Shown here: piece by piece, positions 639 to 37,860 of the stretch
Numbering within the stretch: the first letter of the stretch is position 1
How the letters are laid out: each line of letters opens with the position of its first letter
From: Choanephora cucurbitarum
Lineage: Eukaryota > Mucoromycota > Mucoromycetes > Mucorales > Choanephoraceae
NCBI GenBank assembly: GCA_025331435.1
Contig: JAIWNI010000012.1
Coordinates: 393,626 to 457,625, forward strand
DNA length: 64,000 nucleotides
Direction: 5' to 3'
The notes under the pieces: model-generated
What the model was told of the DNA's origin: nothing
The model's database searches: none
Seen by the model: only the letters and a program-made list of their open reading frames with translations
Translations under genes and position numbers: made by a program

Positions 639-1415
639 ATGAGTACCTTACCACTTACTGTACAAGACGACATTGAAGCCAAAGAAAGATATGCTGCACA
701 ACAAAGAAGACAAGCTGGTTCAGCAAGTTGTGGCTCTCGTCGTATTCGATTGTTGTTTGTTCTGGTTCTTCTCTCATTCTTTTCGTTCGTACTTGTCAGC
801 CATTTTAACCCAAGCTATGCTCATATGATTGTAGAAGAAGACTTGATAGTAAAAGAAGAGCAGCATATAAATGAGCCTGTCAAAGTCCCACAAAAAGACA
901 GTTTGGAAGAGATTCAATTGGTCCAAGAAGACCAAGAAATGATAGATATGCAACATGAAGAAAATGAAACATTAACATTGAAACAAGAAATTGAAGGACT
1001 TATTCGTCAGCACACCTTAATCGTTTTTTCCAAGACTTATTGCCCGTAAAAAAAAAGTCTCAGGGAATTGTTTCAACCAAGAACAAGCTAACATGTTTTT
1101 TCCTTTTAGATTTTCTAAAAATGCCAAGAGACTGTTGAACTCATTTAACCTGAAGGAGTCCTTGACTGTGGTTGAAGTAGATTTGAGAGGTATGAATAAG
1201 AGACGAGGATCAACAGATCATTGACAGCCCTTCTTTCTATTCATTCAGACGACGATTACGAAGTCAAAATGGCTTTGAAAGAAATTTCAGGAAGAGATAC
1301 GTTCCCTAATGTCTTCTTAAATGGCGAAACACTAGGTGGATCGGATGATCTGGAAGCCTTGCATCGGGCGGGTCAATTAGAAGCACTTTTAGGTCAATAC
1401 CAGTTGTTGAATTAA
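639..1415 (+). CDS. Membrane-anchored glutaredoxin (three exons)
   Basis: Predicted type II membrane glutaredoxin of 217 aa, resembling the yeast Grx6/Grx7 class that works in the secretory pathway. Exons are 639-1045, 1110-1189 and 1249-1415. A short Arg-rich N-terminus precedes one membrane segment at about residues 38-55 (LLFVLVLLSFFSFVLV). An acidic linker of about 70 residues follows, then the thioredoxin-fold domain. Intron 1 splits the active site, which reads CPFS after splicing. Family motifs FPNVFLNGETLGGSDDL lie near the C-terminus. The open frame extends upstream to about 504, but that part is T-rich leader sequence; ATG 639 is preferred because it starts a normal cytosolic tail. 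Confidence 0.85.
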
Positions 1416-1522
1416 AAGTCCTACTATAAGAATAGCTTCTTTATCTTTTCTCTTTTTTTTTCCCTTTCTTTTCTACATTAAATCTTTCTTTCTTTCTCTT
1501 TTAATTTGTTTATCTGTCTCTA

Positions 1523-2687
1523 ATGTGGTCATTGTTCAGGCAAAGACATAATGAAAAGAGGAAAGGGAACAGCAAGATTATATCAATTCAGTTGTTAGAG
1601 CCTATTGTCTTGATTGAGCCTAGCATTCAAACTTGCCCTGTCATCCGTGGGACTGTACAGGTCTCACTTCCAGAACAATTTCACTTAGAACGACTCATGC
1701 TTTCCTTCAGAGGTCATTTAGCCTATAGGTCAAATCAAATCGAACACAGTGAGTCAAAAAAAAATTATCGGGTATCACAATGATAAAATTAACTTTTTTT
1801 TTTTTTCGTAAGGTTACATACTGACATCACAATCGATTCAGTTGTCTCCTTCAGGCAACAAGGAACATATCCAGAAAAACAAACGCCGAAAATACATCAG
1901 GCAACATTCATTTGAAATGCCACTGCCTGCCAATTTACCAGAATCAGTTTGTCATTCACAGATCAAAGTATCCTATCAATTGATGGCCTACCTTGATTAC
2001 TATGATGACACTCAACACCGAAGGCATGATGTCATTCAGCATACAATAAAGCTAATTCGACTGCCAAACTTGGAACGACAGACTATCATGCATGACGAAG
2101 ATCGCCTTACTTTGATCGCACATCGTACAAAAGAATGGCGATGTCATATATGGGTAGACAAGACCGCAGTGACGCTTGGATCCGAGTTACCGATGCATAT
2201 AGCCATCTTGATCCATCCCTCTATATCCAAACGAGGTGCTCGAGTGAAGCATATCTTTGTTCAATTGGTTGAACAAGCAGTGATTGAAGAGGAACAGATC
2301 AGTCAATCAGTACATCCATTACACCCTGTCAGAGAATGGCCTCTATCTGCTGCTGTCAGTGGATACCAAGGCCATCATTTCTGGCAAGCAAGTAACCAAT
2401 ACAAGATACCAAATGAGAAGACTATCTCGCATTCAACTTATGCATACCAACATTTTCAAATCAGGCACATTTTATTTATTAGTTTTGTTATTTCTTACAA
2501 TCATCAAAGAGAAGATAGAACCATGTCCTACAAAACGCCAATTGACCTGCTTGACAGTCGATCTGTCTTTGATGCTCTACCGCCTTATGACATGCCTACT
2601 TCCACAAAAGAAATCAAATTGCTCTCTCAGCATGGCCTTATATCACATAATCTAGATAGTTCTACTTCTTTATTTATCTCCTCTTGA
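1523..2687 (+). CDS. Alpha-arrestin-like protein (two exons)
   Basis: Exons 1523-1748 and 1813-2687 encode 366 aa. The N-terminal part (ISIQLLEPIVLIEPS, then VIRGTVQVSLPE) resembles the arrestin N-terminal beta-sandwich seen in ARRDC/ROG3-type proteins. The middle (MPLPANLPESVCHSQIKVSYQL) matches the conserved core, and an arrestin-C-like half follows. Such proteins usually recruit Nedd4-family ubiquitin ligases to membrane transporters. I see no clear PPxY motif, so that role is inference. The stop codon lies inside the 3' end of FANCL on the other strand. Confidence 0.75.
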
Positions 2688-4139
2688 TAATTGTGCCTTG
2701 ACTGTCATTTTCTATAATACAATAAATGAATAGGCCATGTTTCTCATTATGAAAAAAAAATTTTTTTTTTACCTGACTACAATAAGGACATACACCAAAC
2801 AGAATATTGAAGCTTTGTGTGGTAGAAGGATTGCCTCTAAGCCACTGATGTATGATGTTAACTTAAAGAAGACAAACAAAAATAAAAGTGTAGCCTCACC
2901 TGGTATAAGCATGGATAATGAAATCCTCGATTACATTGTGTATTGGCACATATGATATCAGGAGTCTCTACCCCATTTAATTTGTAAGAATAACAGATAC
3001 CACATTCAATATCGCCTGTCTTTGTATAGTCTGTCGATCGTTGTTGTTCGTCTGCTACTAGTTGAAATGTTTCCAGGAGATTTTCATGCATAGGCTTTTG
3101 CTTGTCCCTGAATGTAACAATTAGTTTACCACTGCAAGAGAGAGCGCACACACACTTTTCATATATACCATATCTTGTCATTCCATTTCTTTTTCAGATC
3201 GCTTACTCGACTAGCATTGCCAAAAAATCGTACTTTGTTAGGTTTCATGTTAACAGGTGCATCTGGATTCAATTCAATGTCAAGTGAACAATGATGGCCC
3301 AGAGCAATACGACGCCAACAATCGGCACGAGTAGGTTGCTCTGGCTCCAGAATACGCATATGCTTATCAAGGTCATCCAGGCAGTCAAACAATGATTGGT
3401 ATTGGTTCACCAAGATCTCATGTTGAGCCAAGATGCCATGGAGATCTCGACCTGTGATGTCTATTGAAGCAGGCAGAGGACACGATATCAAACGCACTGG
3501 ATTTAGCGGATATCTAGGTGGTAGTGCCAGTTCAATCAAATGAATACGTTCAGCATTGTCTCTAATGAAGTAGAGTTGATGAGATGAACTTCATAAACAT
3601 GCATCCCTTTTTTTTTTACTTGGTTTGAAATGTGACAGATGCCATGCCTTCTGAAAGACGATGTACACGATCGTACCCAATCTTACTTAATTCATTAACA
3701 ATATAAGCATATCGATCGTACGCATAATTAAACGCAATGGTCTTGGTTGGCTTGTTGGTTTCCTATATCCTTTCTTTTTTTACATCTATCGCTTCTAGTC
3801 TCTCTCTCTCCTTATTACCAACAAATCCTTAAGATCACTTAGAAAAGAACGAACGTCTGTCGCTTGACTCAGTTGACTCTCGACTGCACTTAAATGAGGT
3901 TGAATCAATTCATACAACTGTTGGTCACCTTTAAGGGATCTTGGATGCTTAAATTGAATTTGGATCTGATATTCAATTTGCTAAAGTAAACCATATTCAT
4001 TAATTGTGCAAAATAATAGTCAAAAAACTGTATGTCTTCTCCTGACTGAATGTAGGATTATACGCACATGAATGGTTATGTAGCCTTGATATAAATTATT
4101 TTGAATAGGCAGAATCAAAGGAAAAGGTGTATAATTCAT
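2670..4139 (-). CDS. FANCL: FANCL, Fanconi anaemia E3 ubiquitin ligase (seven exons)
   Basis: Rebuilt from exons 4139-4068, 3980-3819, 3762-3620, 3561-3169, 3131-2900, 2844-2773 and 2711-2670, all in phase, giving 371 aa (human FANCL has 375). FANCL is the RING-type E3 that monoubiquitinates FANCD2/FANCI in interstrand-crosslink repair. The N-terminus (PLILPIQNNLYQGYITIH) matches the ELF domain. The central part contains ILEPEQPTRADCWRRIALG, a hallmark of the DRWD region. The C-terminal PHD/RING retains its zinc ligands: CGIC (about 300/303), C318, C323, H328, C331 and CPYC (353/356), with WLRGNPST and QSFNILFGVCPYC conserved. It is divergent from the SANT gene and convergent with the arrestin, whose end it overlaps by 18 nt. 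Confidence 0.93.
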
Positions 4140-4318
4140 ATTGAACAAAAGACAAAAAAGAAAAAAGAACGCGTGAATCTAAAACGCGCTTCCTGTGTTA
4201 TTATGCTTTTAAAATAGTCACGAAAATAAAGATAACCGATTTTCTCTTTTCATTTCTTTTATTTTTTCCCCTCTCTCTCTCTTCTTACGGTTATCGCATA
4301 GAGTTTAGATCATATAGA
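4140..4318. promoter_or_regulatory. Divergent FANCL / SANT-protein promoter with MCB-like sites
   Basis: The 179 bp between the two start codons must hold both promoters. An ACGCGT (MluI cell-cycle box consensus) lies at 4169-4174 and an ACGCGC at 4184-4189, 30-50 bp upstream of the FANCL ATG. A CT-rich tract at 4246-4285 precedes the SANT gene, as is common before fungal start codons. Cell-cycle control by an MBF-like factor is inferred from the motif alone. Confidence 0.4.
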
Positions 4319-5460
4319 ATGTTATCAGAAAAGCCACGTAGTATGAAATCAGGCGCACGTAATGTGTTACGTTCCAATGATTCTGCCAGTCTCTGGAACT
4401 GTACATTATCACCTGGTTGGACAGACCAAGAATCAGATGTGCTTCGAAAAGCTTTGATGAAATTCGGTATTGGTAATTGGTCAAAGATCATTGAGAGTGG
4501 ATGTTTACCGGGAAAGACCAATGCACAAATGAATCTCCAACTTCAACGTCTACTGGGTCAACAAAGTACAGCAGGTAAAAAGAAGAAAGAAAGACAATCA
4601 GTTCAGTGTCAATAACCTGGTATGACTTAGAGTTTGCTGGTCTTCATATTGATCCTAAAGTTGTGGGTGCTAAGAACGCATTGATTCAAGGCCCTGATAT
4701 CAAGCGCAAAAACGGTTGTATTGTCAATACAGGTAGTAAAGTTTCTCGGGAAGAACTAAAAAGAAGAATTGTGGCCAATAAAGCAGCGTAAGGAAGAAAA
4801 TAGAGAGAGAGAAAAAAAGGTTGCATAAAAAAAGAAATGATAACTAAAAATAATTCAATCTACAAATAGGTATGAAATTCCTGAATCAGAATGGAAAAGC
4901 ATTGTATTACCTAAAATAGTTGAAGTAAACGAACGCTATCTTTTTCTTTTATGCTATTGTACGTTTTCTCACCTCCCTCTTTTCTTTGGTTATAGCCATT
5001 TATCCTTCTGGGAGAAAAAAGAGAAGAAAGAAGAAAACTAAAAGAAGAATTAGCTCGAGTGCAGGCATGTATTGCTAAAATTCAAAGTAAGCATCCTGAT
5101 CGTTTAGCTCAACTAAAGGTAAGACAATTCAAGAAGGAAATAGGGTTTAGCGGAACTAAAAAGAGAGAGCCGTTGTTTACATAGATGGAAGAAAGCCGAT
5201 CACCTTCTCCTGTTGCCAAGTCTCCGGTACCCGTTGCGAATAAATCGCCGGCCCTTAAATCAGTAACACCAATGACCAAACCATCAACAAGATCAAAGAG
5301 GATACCTGATACCGATGGTGATTTAGCAATGGCATTGGCATTACAAAAAGAAGAGGATGAGAGAGCAGGCATCAGTCCAATGGCTTACGAAATAGAAGAA
5401 TTTGATGACGAAGATGACTTTGTACCCAAGAAAAGAAAGGTGCAATCCCGTAGAAGATGA
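4319..5460 (+). CDS. SANT/Myb-domain protein of unknown function (five exons)
   Basis: Exons 4319-4574, 4631-4787, 4870-4924, 4996-5118 and 5185-5460 give 288 aa. One SANT/Myb-like domain lies at about residues 35-82 (GWTDQESDVLRKALMKFGIGNW, then KIIESGCLPGKTNAQMNLQLQRLLGQ). It is followed by a region with FAGLHIDPKVVGAKNAL, a charged helical stretch with EKREERRKLKEEL, a Ser/Pro-rich linker (SRSPSPVAKSPVPVANKSP), and an acidic patch ending in a basic KKRKVQSRRR that looks like a nuclear localisation signal. It is probably a nuclear chromatin-associated protein. I do not recognise an orthologue with a known role. Confidence 0.8.
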
Positions 5461-25644: not shown

Positions 25645-27731
25645 ATGCTACCTGTCAGAGAAACTTACAATCGAAAAGTACTTGGCGAAGCTTTATATGA
25701 TAAAGTAAGCGCAAGTAAGATTTTATTGGTTGGTGCTGGTGGTATTGGTTGCGAACTATTAAAGAACTTGGTCATGTCTGGTTTTAAACAGATCCATGTG
25801 GTATGTTCTAAGCAGAGAATAAGATAGGATAGCTCAAATTTGACAAGTTAGATCTAGATCGATTTAGACACAATTGATATCTCCAACCTCAACCGCCAGT
25901 TCTTATTCCAACGTCAACACGTCAAAAAGTCAAAAGCTCATGTAAGTTGGAACATGTTCATCGATTTATTTGATATGAACTATGGAACCCTCTAGGTAGC
26001 GAAAGAATCAGCCTACAAGTTCAATCCTGATGTTCAGATCACTTCGCTTCAAGCCAATATTAAGGATCCTCAGTTTAACGTACCGTGGTTTAGACAGTTC
26101 ACGATGGTGTTGAATGCATTGGACAATTTAGATGCCCGTCGTCATGTCAACGCCATGTGTTTGGCAGCCAATATACCTCTTGTTGAATCAGGTACACAAG
26201 GTTACCTTGGACAAGCCTATGTGATTCAAAAAGTAACACCAAAATACATTGTCCAGAGAACAAGGGAATAACTCAATCTTGAAAACGATAGGATATCACT
26301 GAATGCTTTGATTGTCAACCTAAGCCTACACCTACCACTTACCCTGTATGTACCATTCGAAGTACACCCAGTGCACCAATTCATTGTATTGTATGGGCCA
26401 AAAGCTATTTATTTAATCAACTCTTTGGCAACTCTGAAGAAGAAGAAGAGTCTGTGATGCAGCAAGAGGAAGATGAAGAGAACGCTCAAGAGTTAGCTGC
26501 TCTTACGAAAGAAGCTGCTGAACTCAAGGCGATCAAGGAGGCAGCAGGATCACCTGATTACGCTGACAAAGTACTAGATAAGGTCTATCGTGTTGATATT
26601 CAACGCTTATTGTCAATGGAATCCATGTGGAAGAATCGCACCAAGCCTGTTCCTTTAGAACATAGTTCAGTCGCCAGTTCAGAAGTTTCCTCCTTATCAG
26701 ACCAAACTGTATGGAACACAAGTCAGAATATCTCTATGTTCAAAGAGAGTGCAGCGCGATTGGCTAGACGATGGTTAGTAGGCAGAGAGCAACAGCCTGA
26801 CTTTACCTTGGCATTCGATAAAGATGATGAGGATGCTATGGATTTTGTAACTGCTGCCTCTAACTTGAGAGCTCATGTATTTCACATTCCTACCAAGAGC
26901 TTATTCGACGTCAAGTGTAAATTCTTTTATTTATCTCTGTTGTTTGTTTAAATGACTCAATATCCCTTTTTCTATGTAGCTATGGCAGGCAACATTATTC
27001 CTGCTATTGCGACTACTAACGCAGTGATTGCAGGTTTTGTTATCATGAAAGCTTTTGGTATCTTGCGTGGAGATATCAAGTCAATCACGCGTGTAAGTGA
27101 AGACTGAATATACACAGAGAAGTATATTCATGTTTTCTATTGCTAGACCTATCTTACCACCGGATCTCGATTTGTACAAGAAGCCAGTGCAGAACCTAAT
27201 TCTCATTGTAGTGTCTGTCGTTCTCAAAGTAGTGTTGTCTTGGTTGATTTTGAAAATACAACATTAGAAGATTTGATGGATCAAGTGATCTGCGAATCCA
27301 GTCAAGGTGCAGGCATGGATAAAGAGGAAGTGGCTATCATGGATGGCAATCGTATGCTGTATGACATTGAATATGAAGATAACCTTCAGCTGCCTTTGAA
27401 ACAATTGGGATTGACCTCAGGTAGTATTTTGCGTATCACTCAAGATGATGATCGTGATGTCGATCTTATATTAGAGCCATTGGTGTAAGTGATGAACCGA
27501 ATCAGCAGACTTAGTATTTATTCTATATGCGTTTCCTAAAATAGGGACCAACCTGATATCAAAGTGAAGCTTATTCAACCTATTCCAAAACTATCTATGG
27601 CTTCACTGAAACGTAAATTGGATGATGAAGAAGAAGAAGAGGGATCTTTCAAAAAGGCGAAGGCTACTCATGCTGTAGTAGATAATGTAGTTGTTTTGGA
27701 AGATGATGAAGAAGTCATGGTGATTAGTTAA
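25645..27731 (+). CDS. UBA2: SUMO-activating enzyme subunit 2 (seven exons)
   Basis: Exons 25645-25800, 25858-25941, 25996-26232, 26292-26916, 26980-27092, 27147-27484 and 27545-27731 encode 579 aa. With Aos1 it forms the SUMO E1, which adenylates SUMO and passes it to Ubc9. Visible features are the nucleotide-binding [46 protein letters not shown], zinc-ligand pairs CFDC and CSVC, and the catalytic cysteine in PVCTIRSTP. The ubiquitin-fold domain lies at about residues 440-515. The acidic C-terminus has basic patches (LKRKL, KKAKA) suited to nuclear import. It is complete with no missing motif. Confidence 0.96.
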
Positions 27732-28952: not shown

Positions 28953-31559
28953 TCATTCTTCTTCATTCAGTCGATGATAGTTTTCCAAGGCATGACATTT
29001 TTCATCACTCCAGTAAAAGAAGGACTTGCGATAGATTAAAGCCCAAATATAGGGTATAAAGAATTCAAAGGAACTTGGATCTTCTCTGTATTGAAATTTC
29101 AACTGAGGTAATACCTAAAACATAACACATGAGTTTCTTTGTGATTCTAGTCCTATAAGCTACTCACAATCCACTGTTGATTTGACCAGGTACGAGAGGC
29201 TTGTTCAATCAGCTGAAGTACTTCACTGGAAGAAGGTGCTTTTAAGTTAGCCTCGAATACGCGGGTATTAAAGTGTTGAATGACTTCTTCTAGATTATGC
29301 ACTAAATCCATAAAACGTGGATGAGATTTAAATGGCATAAAGATTTCTTTCTTCTGTAACAAGGCATACACCAGTTGAGCATTGTGTTTCAGTCTATATC
29401 TTAAGGCTGTATGTATGACTTCCAACAATAAAACTAAAAGATCTTCATAGACTGAGCCATCAGTTGTCTCTGTTGATTTGGAATACCGTCTGGCCAAGAC
29501 CTCAAAAAAGCTACCAAGGAATCAGTCGAATGGTCTGCTCCCTTATCAATCGATACTCTACCTAATCAAACGTTGTGCTACATAGGCATGCATTTCGAGA
29601 ATGGTACTAGACATGTTGGAGAGAATAGCTAGAGCATTGGTATGAAGATAGATATCTCTATGATGAGATAGATTCAGTTGAAGTGCACGAATAAGCACTA
29701 AGATGACAAGACCACCTAAAGAGATAGACTTCAAGAGAGGTCGTTCTGTAAGCCAGGGTAGTTGATTGACTGTCTGTAGAAAGAATGAGTGAATTGACTT
29801 GTACAAACAGGGCTGTCATTACCACTTTATGCAATGCCTCATTATTCACATCGTCCTCACTTAAGATCAATAAAATCAACAATAACATATAGAGTTGAGC
29901 ATAATTAGCCTTGGCTTCCATTGATTCATAGATCAATTTGAGGATAGGCAAATACTGCAATACGATGAGTATAGGCTACAACCTGGTTCAATCCAAATGA
30001 CTTACTATTGTCTCTTGATCTGTTCTTGAAAGTACAAACACACGAAAGGACTCGTTTTCCTTCAGAATCAAATAGAACAAAATCATCCTTTCTTCTACAT
30101 GAATAGAAGCACTAAAGATATCCAGCAGATCTTTAAATGAGATCAAATGCATTCTTCTATCCTGTCCATCCAGATCGCTTGAAATCACTAAAGACCAATA
30201 GTCAGTCTATCTAGTCTATCAATCCTGTCTTTCCAATTTACCATGATGATCACTCAGATTAGCCAAAGCAAATCGATAGGCTTTTATCCAAGCTTGATTC
30301 AGATCAGACTCAGGTTGAGTGCCCAGCAAGAGCAAGAGCAACAGACTTCGATCAGCCACCGGTATGGCCTCTGGATCCAAGGTGGATGTGGATGCTCGAC
30401 CCGAAAAGAAATAGTTATAAGCAGTATACATTACACTGGAGGACTGAGGAGGTGCAGTCTTTTGACCAATCATGTTTTCCAGCAATCGGGCTACAATTGT
30501 CTCTGCTCGGTTGGCAAATTTGGACATCAAGATATTCAGAAAGTAGTTGTTTGCTTGAGATAATTTGGATTGATGCAGTTGAGTCGAACAGAACACAATT
30601 AGGGTATTCAATACTTCCGTATAGAATTCATAAGTGGAATGGTTGAAACTATAAACTGAGATGAGCAAACAGAATCGCCCTTTGATGTCTCTACTTATAC
30701 CATCTTACCATGGATCCATATTGATCAAAATATACAGTAACGACTCCATCAACATCTCTCCATATGTTGTCTTGTTGATATCATCTTCTAGCTGATACAC
30801 AATCTCCTGGTTGGTCAAATTAGCTGCGAATTGTTTCATAAATGCCTGTGTTAAGAATAATGCATTGAACACTTCAATAGGGATAGATCTAATTGGATAA
30901 TCAGTTGCATGTAATATAAGATAGAGCCAGCCAGCCTACTTTACTCATATTGATTGGATTGTAAATCTTTTAGTAGTTCAAGTAAGTGGAGAATTAACTT
31001 GTTGAAATTGTGTGTCTTTGGATTATTAGCAGCTAATTTATAGAGCATAAGATCTCTTTTCTTTCTTTTTCTTTTCTCTTTTTTCTTACCGAGATCGATC
31101 GACAATCCCAATGTAGTCATCTCTAGATCATAGGCACTCTGTCTATTGAAATGTATGAGGTAAGAGAAAATAGAGTTAAAAACAAGATATTTACGCGCTA
31201 TGTAAGGTAGGGTATTTCTCTAGAGTCAAAAAAGTCAAGTCATCTATCTCGGTCAAGGAACAAAGGGGTCGAATGCCAGCTAGTTGAGAAGGTGAAAAGA
31301 AAGGATGATGTTGCTCAGCCAAGGGATGAGTACGATGACTAGTGTATTTGGTGGTGGGTGTAGTAGGTGATTGTAAGCTTAAACTCGAGAAAGGTACATC
31401 GATAGATTGTGAATGGGATAATAAAGGTGGTGGTGGTGGCTGCTGTTGCTTTTGCTGTGATGGCGAAGGTTTGTTCTCAGTAAATACGAAATTAGAAGGC
31501 CTTCTTGTAGTGGGTGGTGGAGCAGTGATAGTGCTTGAAAGGGTAGAAGGTGGATCCAT
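28953..31559 (-). CDS. DYM: Dymeclin homologue (ten exons)
   Basis: Exons 31559-31195, 31142-31090, 31053-30945, 30888-30709, 30648-30242, 30187-30006, 29954-29823, 29773-29562, 29510-29168 and 29114-28953 give 714 aa (human DYM 669). Dymeclin is a Golgi-associated peripheral protein involved in trafficking. Matching blocks are NNPKTHNFNKLILHLLELL, LLLLILLILSEDD, SISLGGLVILVLIRALQ, DIYLHTNALAILSNMS, AQLVYALLQKKE and FFIPYIWALIY. The N-terminal 100 residues are Pro/Ser/Gln-rich and replace the MGxN/S myristoylation start of animal dymeclins, so membrane attachment here must differ. The ATG at 31559 is the first in frame. Confidence 0.9.
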
Positions 31560-31830
31560 TGGTATTTTAAAAAGCAAAAAAATAAAGAAATGAAATCTAT
31601 TTTTGTATAGTTTCTATTTATAAAAAAAAACAAATTAGCTTTTTTTCCCTTTTGGAAAATGAGCATTTTGTTAGGTATGTATAAGCAACATGATGAAGGT
31701 TCTAAGTAAGCGAGCTATCTGTATTTGCTAATTCAAACAACCAAGCTTGAAAAATAAGCTTGGACCTGAGCAAAGTAATGCTTTCCTTTTTTGGAAAACA
31801 ATCAAGATTATCATGCAGTTAGGTGGGTTA

Positions 31831-32486
31831 GCTATATCCACCTCACAAAAATTTCTTTGAGAGCTGGCACCTCACTTTTTTTATCTCGCCCAATCATTTA
31901 TCTTTATTTTACAGATTTTAGTAAATCCTCTTACTTTTCTACACCTCACTTTCTTGTGTTTACAGCCGACTTGCTTTTTCTGTCTTTTTCTGCTATGAAT
32001 CAAAAGCATCTCTCAACTCCCAGGTTAATGCCTTTCATCTCAGAGGGTGTTTATGAATTTCCTGAGGTCATTATCTACTTGAGATGTAGACAAAAATCAT
32101 ATTGTATATGAGTCCTACTAAAGCAAGTGTATCATTTTTAGTTGAGTTTGTTCAAATGTATAATGTTTAGAAGGCTATTTTCTTTCAGTTATTTCATGCA
32201 TTTTTTTTAATCTTCACTGAAAATCTAAATAACACAACAGGCTTGAAGCTGACTGATTACACACTATACATTTATTTTACGTTTTATTCCAACAATAGTG
32301 CACTTCGTTAAAAGCGAGTCAGTCAAGGTGCAACTGGCAAAAGCAAGTCGGCTGTAAACACAAGAAAGTGAGGTGTAGAAAAGTAAGAGGATTTACTAAA
32401 ATCTGTAAAATAAAGATAAATGATTGGGCGAGATAAAAAAAGTGAGGTGCCAGCTCTCAAAGAAATTTTTGTGAGGTGGATATAGC
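31831..32486. repeat. Foldback element: perfect 148-bp inverted repeat with 360-bp spacer
   Basis: Arm 31831-31978 is the exact reverse complement of 32339-32486. Similarity continues imperfectly outward (ATCATGCAG / ATCAAATGCAG). Each arm carries CACCTCAC three times, like transposase sub-sites. The spacer 31979-32338 has no long ORF. It could be a non-autonomous DNA transposon or MITE, or a source of long hairpin RNA. Perfect identity implies recent insertion or gene conversion. Confidence 0.9.
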
Positions 32487-32697
32487 CAACCTGCATTTGA
32501 TAAAATTTTGCTGCGCGAAGCTCAAATCTTTTTCTTTTTCTTTAACTTTGACGATATTCAGGTGCAAATTTTGGAGAACGAGCTAGAATGCAGACACGTT
32601 GTGTTTGTGTTGACGAAACGTGGAGTACGCTGAGGGACTTGAAAGGCATACCACCCGTGCTCAATCAGTTAACTTTAGGCTAGAATCCTTATCCCAA

Positions 32698-32781
32698 AGG
32701 GTTGACAGAGTGCTCTTTTGCTTAGAAGGTTGACAAAGCGCCCTTCTGATCAATAGGTTGACAAAGCGCCCTTTTGTTCAA
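32698..32781. repeat. Three tandem copies of a 28-bp repeat
   Basis: GGTTGACARAGYGCYCTTYTG recurs at 32700, 32728 and 32756, an exact 28-bp period with a few substitutions. It lies between the foldback element and the gene fragment. Confidence 0.85.
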
Positions 32782-32932
32782 AAGGCAAAAGACACACGCC
32801 AATAACTGAAACTGTCTTCCACAAACAGAAATATATTATGTTAGATCTATGATGAGCTTTGTTGTCTGCCTTTCTTCACATAAGAAGCGCGTTTATGGCA
32901 ACCCACTCTGAGATCATGTTTATCTATATATT

Positions 32933-33799: not shown

Positions 33800-36700
33800 C
33801 AACACTCTTAACTGTCGTAGTATTGCTAAGACAGTCAACCCCAACGTTCGTTCATCTTTCATCCGCCATTTGCGCAAACACTCCTTTGATATTCTAGCTC
33901 TTCAAGAAACACACACTGACGATGTGCTCTTGCAACAAACACTTTATCAACAATTCCAAGCTTAAAACAGCATCTGGCCCGCTCACTGCGGTCTGATCTG
34001 TTTTCACCCAGATATTGAATTTTCTAACTCTTTTATTGATTGCTGTGGTCGTCTTACCAACACATCCATCACCCATCGCTCAAATCTTTTTGATCCATCC
34101 ACCCTCACTGTAGTCTATTTCCCTGCCGATAGTGGTGAAAGATCCACCTTTCTCACCTCAGCCTCTATTGCTACCTTCTTTCCACCCAAACCATCACGTC
34201 AAGTGATTCTGGGTGATTTTAACTATTCATATGCCAACCACTTCCTTAGTCTTCCTTGTAGAGCGCCCCAAGAATGGCTTGAGTATATTGATCGGTTTTT
34301 TGTAGATACCATCACTTCTATTGGCCAGCTTGCATTGCCCACCTTTCATAACCATAGAGGTACTTCTTGTATCGATTACGGTTTTACTACAAAAGATATG
34401 CTTTCAAGTGTCCTGTATAATCGCAATCAAGTTGACTTTTTGCCAATTGGATGGACAAATCATAGGCTACTCTCACTACGCCTCCGTCTCCAGTCATCAT
34501 CCTCTCCTTCTTCCTCTGCTACCTCTATAGATAACGGTTTCTGGAAAGCGCACCCTCGACTAGCCAAGGATGTTACCTTTCAGGTGAAGCTGAAATCCCG
34601 CTTGTCCGAGGTAGTAGCTAGTTTTCCTTTATATCTTTCTACCTCCCTTAAATGGGAACATTTGAAGCATGTCACTGCCAAAACAGCAAGAGTGTATTCT
34701 CGCCGTCAAGCGTATACCCTTTCTCGCGCCGAAGCTCTGCTCCAAAGAAAGCGGTCTAAGATTGAATTGAACTTAATCCGCGATCCATCTTTGTACTCTA
34801 AACTTTCTCTCTTGTTGCAAGTAGTACAAGAGCAACTGCCATCTTTACAACATTACCATGTTGAAAACTTGGCTTTGAAGGCGGGTATCCGATGGCGTGA
34901 AAAAGGAGAACTTTCTGCAGGATACCTTAAGCGAACTGCCTCGGCAAGACTCTCTAATTTCATTATCCCCCCACTCCAGCATCCAGCTTTGAACCGTGTT
35001 TGTCAAACCAAAGAGGAAATGCTTGATTCAGCTTTTATCTTTTATGATAAACTCTATTCTCCGGCACCAATAGACGTCGATGCTGTTGAATCTCTTTTGA
35101 ACTCAATACCTTCATCGGCTCATATTTCAGATTCTGATTCTAACTTACTACTTGAGAGGATTGCTTTTGATGAATTAGTCGACACCTTTTCCCATTGTCC
35201 TTCTACAAGCAGCCCCGGATTAGATGGATTACCTTACGAAATCATCAAGCTGATTGTAGTCCATCCATCCTGCCGCAAAATTGCCCTGCAGGTTTTCAAT
35301 GACGCCTTACTCTATGGCATCTTTCCTCCGTCTTGGTCGTCTACTTCTGTTTGTCTATTGCCGAAAAAGGGAGATTTGACAGATCTAAAGAATTGGCGTC
35401 CAATTTCCTTAATCAACACTGATGCGAAGGTTTTCACCCGTATCCTGAATGCGCGCTTTCTTTTAGTTGCAGATGACCTAATCAATCCCTACCAGTCTGG
35501 TTTTGTTCGAGGCCGGTTCATCGCTGACAACGGTCTTTTGATGAAGTTGCTGATGGAGCATGCCCGCCTCACTCACTCCCCTGCGATCGCTCTACTTTTG
35601 GATCAAGAGAAAGCCTACGATCGGGTACATCCCCATTATCTACAGCTTGTACTGGAACGTTTTGGTTTTCCTTCCGCAATCATTAACAGCATCACCTCGA
35701 TCTTCTTCTCCACTCAATTGTTTGTCAATGTCAACGGATTTCACTCATCTTCTGTCTTACAAAGGCGAGGCCTACGACAGGGAGATTCGCTCTCGCCGGT
35801 TCTGTTCAACCTGGCTCTCGAACCTCTCTTGAGGTCTATTCTTTCCGCCCCACTTTTGAACACAATTTCTCTGCCTTCTCCTTTGACGTTGTCACTAACT
35901 CTTGAGTTGGGTCCGATTAAATTGCTCGCCTACGCCGATGATGTCCCCTGTTTTCTCAACAATAACAACGAACTCCAACACTTTCTCTCCTTGTTGTCTA
36001 CCTACTCCAGGGCTTCCAACGCATAAGTCAACTATCACAAGACTCAGGCTCTTTCCTTGTCTGGTATTCGAAGTCGATTTATGACCAATTTGGCTTCTCC
36101 CTTAACGGAGGGCCACATTACTCAATGGCATGACTCTTCTTCTGTTGGTCCTATCATTTACTTGGGTTATCCCTTGTTCACCTCCTCTCACCAGCGAGAC
36201 TTTTTTCTCTCCTCTTTGCTTAAGAAGATCAGTGCTGCTTGTTATATCCATAAAGGTCGTCAATTATCAGTTCGAGACCGAGTCACCGTGACGAACTCGC
36301 TGATTCTATCGAAGCTATGGTATGTTCTCCGTGTGGTCTCAGTACTTTTGCCCTTCTTCAATAACCTCTGATCCATTATTTCGGCATTCATATCATACCG
36401 CATTTTTCCACGGCTGAGCTACTTTACTATGTGCCTGCCAAGATCGAAAGGCGGCTTAGGTTTGCTGAACGCACAACAACAACAGGGCACTCTCCAACTT
36501 AGATGGTTAGTTCCACTCCTTGCCGATTTTCAAATTGACACTGTGTCATCAGCCTTTTCTTTGGATCCTGATTCTACTGCAATTTCCTCTATCGTCTTGA
36601 CCCGTATGTTGAATTTCTTTCATCATCATGTTTCAGACTCTCTGGATTATCGCTTACCCTTCTTGTTCCCTGCTCTACGCTCACAGCCGCTCAGAAATAT

Positions 36701-37860
36701 CAACAGCGCCTTTTTGTTGCCTTTCAGAGCTTTGGACTCTCTGTTACACCTGTTTAGAACGGTCGTTGTCACTGCTGCCACCTGCCTCACTTTGTCATTG
36801 TCATCAGTTGTCACACCGAGTACTTTAACTCATATCCCCAAACAGCTTTACTCTCTTCGGGTGTCATTCTTGTACGAGCATAATCCTGAAAGGGATTCCT
36901 GCCTTCGTCCTATTGCCTCTCGCACGCGCCTGGTTCGTTACCCTACTTTGTGCAGACGCTTACATCGAATGGTCAGTACTAATGTCATCAAGTTCGCCGA
37001 ATTCCTCATCCGTGCCTTTATTCCTCCTCGTTTTGCTGCTTTAGGCTGTCATCCTTTTACGCCTGTCTCTGATCATCGTCTCTTTGACCTACATCCGTTC
37101 CTCTCTTGCCTCCTTTTGGACTGGCCATCTTCTGTTTCTCTGCTCACAAGACCACTCTACCGGAGTATGTGCTTGCCTACTACCGCCAAGCCATCCACTC
37201 TCCCCTCTTCACCGATGAAATCTTGGAAGTTCTTTTGGCAGATTCCTCTATCCCACCATGCTCGTACCATCTGGTTCCGTACTATCCATGGAAAGATCCC
37301 TACTCGGAAAATCATGCATGAACGGCTCCAGTCTAAATTTCCTTCTCCGGCCTGTCCAGTTTGTAATCATGCAGTGGAGGACTTTGACCATTTTGTCTTT
37401 TCTTGCCCACCGAAACTCCAGATCTGGCAGAGAGTGTGGCATACTTTCTTTGATAGCTCTGTAGATTTGTCTGTTGACAACCTTTCGTTGAAACAAGCCA
37501 TCCTCAAGCTCGAATTTCCATCTCTTTCCGCCTCTTCTCACCCGTCCTCTCATTTCGCTTCCCTGCTTATCGGCTTTACTTTACAGAGTATATGGCGCGC
37601 TTATTGGACTCTTGTTTTTGAAAATTGTCCCTTCTCACCTGAGACTGTTTACACCACAATTCTTGCTTTCACTCATACCGCTAACCAAGAGTTCCTTATT
37701 GCCAAGGGCATCCCACATCGTCCTTTTCCCCCATTTTTACTTGATGACCATGTTTAGACATCCCTTTTTAGTGTTCATCTTCTATTATACTTTTATTTTC
37801 TTACATAACTAACCAAAACACAAAGCCCCCTAAAAACATTTCAAAATGACAAAACCTAAA
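33800..37860 (+). mobile_element. Non-LTR (LINE) retrotransposon, 5'-truncated and decayed
   Basis: Homology starts abruptly near 33800, within the endonuclease domain and right after an A/G-rich tract, so the 5' end is missing. One plus-strand frame carries endonuclease, reverse transcriptase and a C-terminal zinc-binding region to the TAG at 37755-37757. About 100 bp of 3' untranslated sequence follows. I could not find target-site duplications or a clear poly-A tail. Likely an L1-like/Grem-type element of Mucoromycota. Confidence 0.9.
33801..37757 (+). pseudogene. LINE ORF2: AP endonuclease / reverse transcriptase with three in-frame stops
   Basis: The whole coding body stays in one frame but is cut by TAA 33963-33965, TAA 36024-36026 and TGA 36369-36371. 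The endonuclease part shows LALQETHTDD, VILGDFN and SCIDYGF. The reverse transcriptase shows GLDGLPYEI, NWRPISLINTDAKVFTRIL, YQSGFVRGR, LLLDQEKAYDRV, LRQGDSLSPVLFNLALEPLL and the catalytic YADD box at about 35932. The tail has a zinc-binding CPVC...H...C pattern near 37350-37410 typical of LINE ORF2. No frameshift is seen. The element is therefore inactive but recently degraded. Confidence 0.9.

Follow-up and report, generated by a model that had tools for sequence, protein, structure and literature searches.

A long inverted repeat in the fungus Choanephora cucurbitarum is probably a non-autonomous MULE

Introduction

MULEs that end in terminal inverted repeats (TIR-MULEs) are described as having TIRs of 14-500 bp and target-site duplications (TSDs) of 8-11 bp (PMC6446971). 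In the group descriptions of the same source, ‘MULE-Mucorales’ (group 5) is given a 10-bp TSD, a 40-bp TIR and SWIM, the MULE-Diatoms group is entered as ‘No TSD and not indicated’, and the ‘Jittery’ plant subgroup (group 36) bears FAR1 (PMC6446971). Long TIRs are also a feature of the Mutator/Foldback family Tm1 from root-knot nematodes, for which 8-10-bp TSDs are recorded in 45 of 53 complete elements and a mean TIR identity of 93.15%, with 5 of 61 at 100% (PMC3169594). Galileo of Drosophila, in the P superfamily, has TIRs that are 98-100% identical within a copy and includes 12 chimeric copies without matching TSDs; its authors suggest that a broken TIR is repaired from the partner TIR (PMC3573991).

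The family described here, one member of which accounts for a long inverted repeat in Choanephora cucurbitarum if our reading is right, resembles the TIR-MULEs of that classification in combining a MULE transposase domain with long TIRs, the Jittery plant subgroup in carrying FAR1, and MULE-Mucorales in having a Mucoromycota host (PMC6446971). It differs from MULE-Mucorales, as far as the table description of that group allows comparison, in its TIRs of about 140-155 bp and in the lack of any TSD found (PMC6446971). Like Tm1 as described, it contains non-coding long-TIR elements beside transposase-bearing ones and has repeated motifs in the TIRs; unlike Tm1, it has TSDs in none of six elements and its boxes are not tandem repeats (PMC3169594).

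Results

The window, by which is meant the whole stretch of DNA that was analysed (64,000 nt; contig JAIWNI010000012.1, positions 393,626 to 457,625), contains an inverted pair at 31826-31978 and 32339-32491, in which 153 nt are 99% complementary and 360 nt apart; Choanephora belongs to the Mucorales, the order correctly named in the first-pass annotation. The inner 148 bp of the pair (31831-31978 versus 32339-32486) are perfect. Within 1 kb, the longest perfect inverted match is 148 bp in the window versus 12-15 bp in ten dinucleotide-preserving shuffles of the whole window, confirming the 148-bp perfect inverted repeat with a 360-bp spacer reported in the first-pass annotation. With the minimum length set to 40, six inverted pairs are found across the window, and the other five are 71-76% complementary and look like low-complexity sequence.

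Homology to the termini of relatives refined the ends to 31824 and 32493, which gives an element of 670 bp (31824..32493). It consists of a left terminal inverted repeat of 155 bp at 31824..31978 (+), with the terminus TGGGTTAGC and matches to MULE ends genome-wide, a non-coding 360-bp spacer at 31979..32338, and a right terminal inverted repeat of 155 bp at 32339..32493 (-), with the terminus CAGGTTGGC read inwards. When arm is set against arm, 152 of the 155 positions pair, the mismatches fall at positions 1, 2 and 7 only, and the near-perfect identity stops abruptly at the inner end. Inside the spacer no stop-free run exceeds 46 codons, and the element holds no ATG ORF of at least 60 aa, so the spacer is without an ORF, as had been stated. 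A stop-to-stop frame of 110 codons (31779-32111, +) runs through the left arm into the spacer and has no sign of being a gene, and Rfam returned nothing over the window at gathering scores.

Each arm carries the three boxes already seen in the first reading. The left arm has CACCTCAC at 31839..31846 (+; box 1, arm position 16), 31868..31875 (+; box 2, arm position 45, or 48 in relatives) and 31942..31949 (+; box 3, arm position 119), and these are mirrored in the right arm as GTGAGGTG at 32471-32478, 32442-32449 and 32368-32375, respectively. Six of the eight occurrences of CACCTCAC in the whole window (three on the + strand, five on the -) lie within the arms. Box 1 is also found at arm position 16 in three larger copies of the family, on contigs C336, C311 and C37. 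The boxes are possible, and plausible, transposase binding sites.

The surroundings of the element include three 28-bp tandem copies just to its right (32700-32783), 71-79% like the first, and a LINE-like retroelement at 33966-37757 (+) with three open frames that follow one another in a single reading frame, and with RVT_1 and zf-RVT matches. Two neighbouring gene pieces match the ubiquitin-activating enzyme SCCH domain (26292-26951, +) and Dymeclin (30219-30704, -).

With one arm as query, at least 24 matches were found on 14 contigs, the window's own two included, in a search that covered the genome from which the window comes (33.4 Mb, 357 contigs) and whose counts are lower bounds. Single-copy arms, which the first-pass annotation had named as a sign against a mobile element, are thus not what this genome holds. 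Three inverted arm pairs lie 4-9 kb apart, on C336, C311 and C37. The C336 pair bounds an element of 4,437 bp (L009 554-4990), to which the C311 copy, itself carrying a 4.2-kb insert, is 98% alike over 3.8 kb; further copies of the larger element are present on C37, C47 and C31, with a partial one on C34. The C336 element and these copies have a common terminus, (C)GGGTTGGCTATATYCACCTCAC, and interiors that are 90-99% alike. In the window element this terminus recurs with changes, the coding sequence of the larger copies is missing, and the arms measure 155 bp versus about 140 to 155 bp in the relatives.

The terminus GGTTGGCTATATNCACCTCAC occurs at nine sites without mismatch and at seven with one; at up to three mismatches there are 24 sites, compared with five control sites. 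As a marker for more members, the pattern CAGGTTGGCTAT was uninformative, giving seven exact matches against three for the control. Terminus matches with two or three mismatches on C35, C314, C349, C113 and C292 had no inverted partner in 3-kb loci and were left out of all member counts. The 4.2-kb element inside the C311 copy (L010, about 1205-5456) has inverted ends of about 130 bp that are 94.7% alike and one long frame with a reverse transcriptase match, an RNase H match just below cut-off and a Dam match below cut-off; its sequence suggests a DIRS-like retroelement.

PF10551 has 87 matches in the genome, one each in the C336, C311, C47, C31 and C37 copies, where about positions 52-98 of 99 are covered, and a search with a transposase piece as query gave two matches. 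Frames of the C37 copy give a FAR1 match of 48 bits (cut-off 28.1) as well as a MULE match, for which one frame scores 20 bits, below cut-off, and the next 35.2 bits (cut-off 27.6). Read in six frames, the copies with a transposase are broken or split by introns: they spread over several frames and have a TAG within the matched region, so that any present activity is at most putative.

The larger copies carry a second frame with a (D/N)GNCGFRAVA motif that is weakly similar to OTUD5 (3pfy, E 0.0077) and gave no Pfam match in the two fungal pieces tested. Its five homologues comprise two from Choanephora (one named Choanephora cucurbitarum), one from Citrus (P0005) and two from Tanacetum (P0006 and P0007). 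MULE domains are present in P0005 and P0006; P0006 also has an otubain match, and P0007 has FAR1 and OTU matches, all three below cut-off. The second frame is similar to these plant FAR1/MULE proteins, which have an OTU-like region (E 8e-8 to 8e-5), with which it has in common, on our own reading, the DGNCGFR motif. Unlike P0006, in which MULE and OTU-like parts form one protein, the fungal OTU-like frame is separate in six-frame view. Because the OTU matches lie below Pfam cut-offs and the fungal pieces have no Pfam match, the frame is called only probably ‘OTU-like’.

The arms of the window element are TIRs that also bound an element coding for a MULE transposase, and their 155 bp lie within the 14-500 bp described for such repeats (PMC6446971). 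TSDs of 8-11 bp were found in none of the six distinct two-ended elements; since absent duplications can also follow rearrangement or misassembly, the filing as a MULE was kept on the transposase and the TIRs. As the window copy shares TIRs and termini with the larger copies and is without their coding sequence, the most fitting reading of it is as a non-autonomous MULE. Literature searches found nothing on this MULE family of Choanephora cucurbitarum.

At the window element, comparison of the flanks at lengths of 8-11 and offsets of up to 2 gave a best match of six bases, a score that is attained by 10-45% of random pairs. No TSD was found in any of the six distinct two-ended elements (lowest P 0.095 over 24 tests), nor any shared word of five or more within 25 bp. 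The six, all of one family, are the window element, C336, C311, C37, the group of C131, C104 and C83, which share flanks and were counted once, and the pair of C24 at 219 kb and C61, likewise counted once; C34, C31, C47, C124, C13, C295 and C325, where no second end was found in the sequence covered, were left out. The duplications that the first-pass annotation had proposed as a check were thus detected neither at the window element nor at its five two-ended relatives, and, since a TSD would be expected after recent cut-and-paste transposition, a recent jump is disfavoured.

An empty-site search with the joined flanks of the window element, C336, C311 and C24:219 returned 20 matches, none of which spans the junction; the window flanks match themselves only, and repeats in the other flanks end 3 to 86 bp before the junction. 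C24:256844 was considered as an empty site and rejected, being a deletion derivative of the C24:219 locus. The segment with a related 746-bp element is present on C24 at about 219 kb (L022) and on C61 (L021), and again on C24 at about 257 kb (L034), inverted and with most of the element deleted.

At two relatives, the flanks are inverted copies on either side of the element: on C37 (L011) over 819 bp at 99.8%, TIR included, and on C131 (L012) in an alignment of 2,493 bp at 99.1%. A further inverted pair, of at least 2,401 bp and 99.9% alike in the pieces compared, was found on C288 (L072/L073) via the C37 flank. The near-perfect inverted repeats at C37, C131 and C288, with arms of 0.8 to at least 2.4 kb (99.1-99.9%), are either real palindromes or misassembly. 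The C37 flank recurs on C232 (91% over 132 bp), where it reaches the exact junction base before giving way to other sequence, which supports the element boundary on C37. The 1.5-kb flanks of the window element showed no inverted similarity to each other.

The arms of the window element are 98% like each other; their identity with each of 16 other arms does not exceed 84%, and with the C336 TIRs it is 77-79%. Multiple near-identical copies, as looked for in a MITE or recent foldback, were not found; the spacer has five other matches in the genome (C61, C24, C83, C104 and C131), at 67-68% identity over part of its length. The chance that three random mismatches all fall in the outer seven of 155 positions is about 6e-5, for a seven-position cut-off chosen after the data were seen. 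The relative at C24:219 kb has a comparable distribution, with arm mismatches in the first 60 bp at positions 2 and 4 only and, beyond these, an indel of about 70 bp between the arms. A tree of 18 arms, which compared 155 bp and so runs past the TIR inner end in some copies, pairs the element's own arms for the window (support 0.77), C131 (1.00) and C37 (0.99); those of C336, C311 and C24:219 are not paired within the element.

Discussion

Taken together, the data make it probable that the window element is a non-autonomous MULE and that its arms are TIRs, whose near-perfect identity would have come from copying between arms. Judging from the sequence, the 155-bp arms would be bound and cut by a transposase encoded by larger copies at other loci, and the window copy could move in trans only. 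One arm would have been copied onto the other, by gene conversion or by fold-back repair after a break, rather than their likeness stemming from a recent jump, and the outermost bases would escape homogenisation because there is no homology beyond them. We infer that the arms were homogenised within the element, as suggested by the mismatches at positions 1, 2 and 7 only, the abrupt inner end, the distance of both arms from all others, the lack of a TSD and the comparable pattern at C24:219. The arm tree agrees in part only, and an origin of the terminal mismatches in a source copy is also conceivable. Galileo, with its within-copy TIR identity and its chimeric copies without matching TSDs, provides a proposed precedent for homogenisation, although its transposase is of another superfamily and the likeness is one of working, with no membership claimed (PMC3573991).

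The first-pass annotation had taken the element for a recent non-autonomous transposon. Non-autonomous is supported, since within this genome MULE copies that bear a transposase end in sequences matching the arms; recent and young are not supported. A young foldback or MITE insertion would owe its identical arms to recent transposition from an unsampled or lost source copy, and the identity of all 148 inner arm positions is what such an event would leave; near-complete transposase-bearing relatives that are up to 99% alike also indicate that the family moved fairly recently. Against this, there is no detectable TSD at the window element and no close copy of its spacer, the arms are only 77-79% like the C336 ends, and the arm mismatches are confined to the outermost 7 bp, at the termini. 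A young insertion is accordingly judged unlikely, and near-identical ends are probably not proof of a recent jump.

It is less probable still that the locus is, as the first-pass annotation also suggested, one transcribed as a long hairpin RNA feeding siRNA production, with mobility past or irrelevant. If both arms were transcribed together, they would pair as a perfect stem of 148 bp, and two Dicer_dimer matches over cut-off suggest that RNAi machinery exists in this genome, but these show capacity only; any TIR element would look alike, and a TIR origin already explains the arms. Very little weight is given to an assembly artefact in which one arm was copied into the other's position. The C37 and C131 relatives do sit in longer palindromes that are possible misassemblies through TIRs, but the arms of the window element disagree at three terminal bases, their spacer is unique and the 1.5-kb flanks on either side are without inverted similarity.

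As a non-autonomous MULE, the window element is an ordinary kind of thing in an under-annotated genome, and the unusual features of its family are the lack of detectable TSDs and the inverted flanks at two relatives. This combination is odd and could reflect assembly errors; at C37 and C131, either fold-back repair or misassembly through the TIRs would give inverted flanks. A bolder and rather doubtful proposal is that these MULEs belong to a fungal lineage, equipped with FAR1 and an OTU-like second frame, that inserts without TSDs and whose ends are repeatedly rewritten by fold-back repair, sometimes copying host flank into palindromes (C37, C131). If this were true, TIR identity would be a signature of repair and not a clock. 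Furthermore, should a long-read assembly bear out both the absent duplications and the inverted flanks, this would be a good family for studying fold-back repair at transposon ends. Reading the window element as a non-autonomous MULE assigns a hairpin that had no explanation to a known superfamily of transposons, and cautions against dating such elements by the identity of their arms alone.
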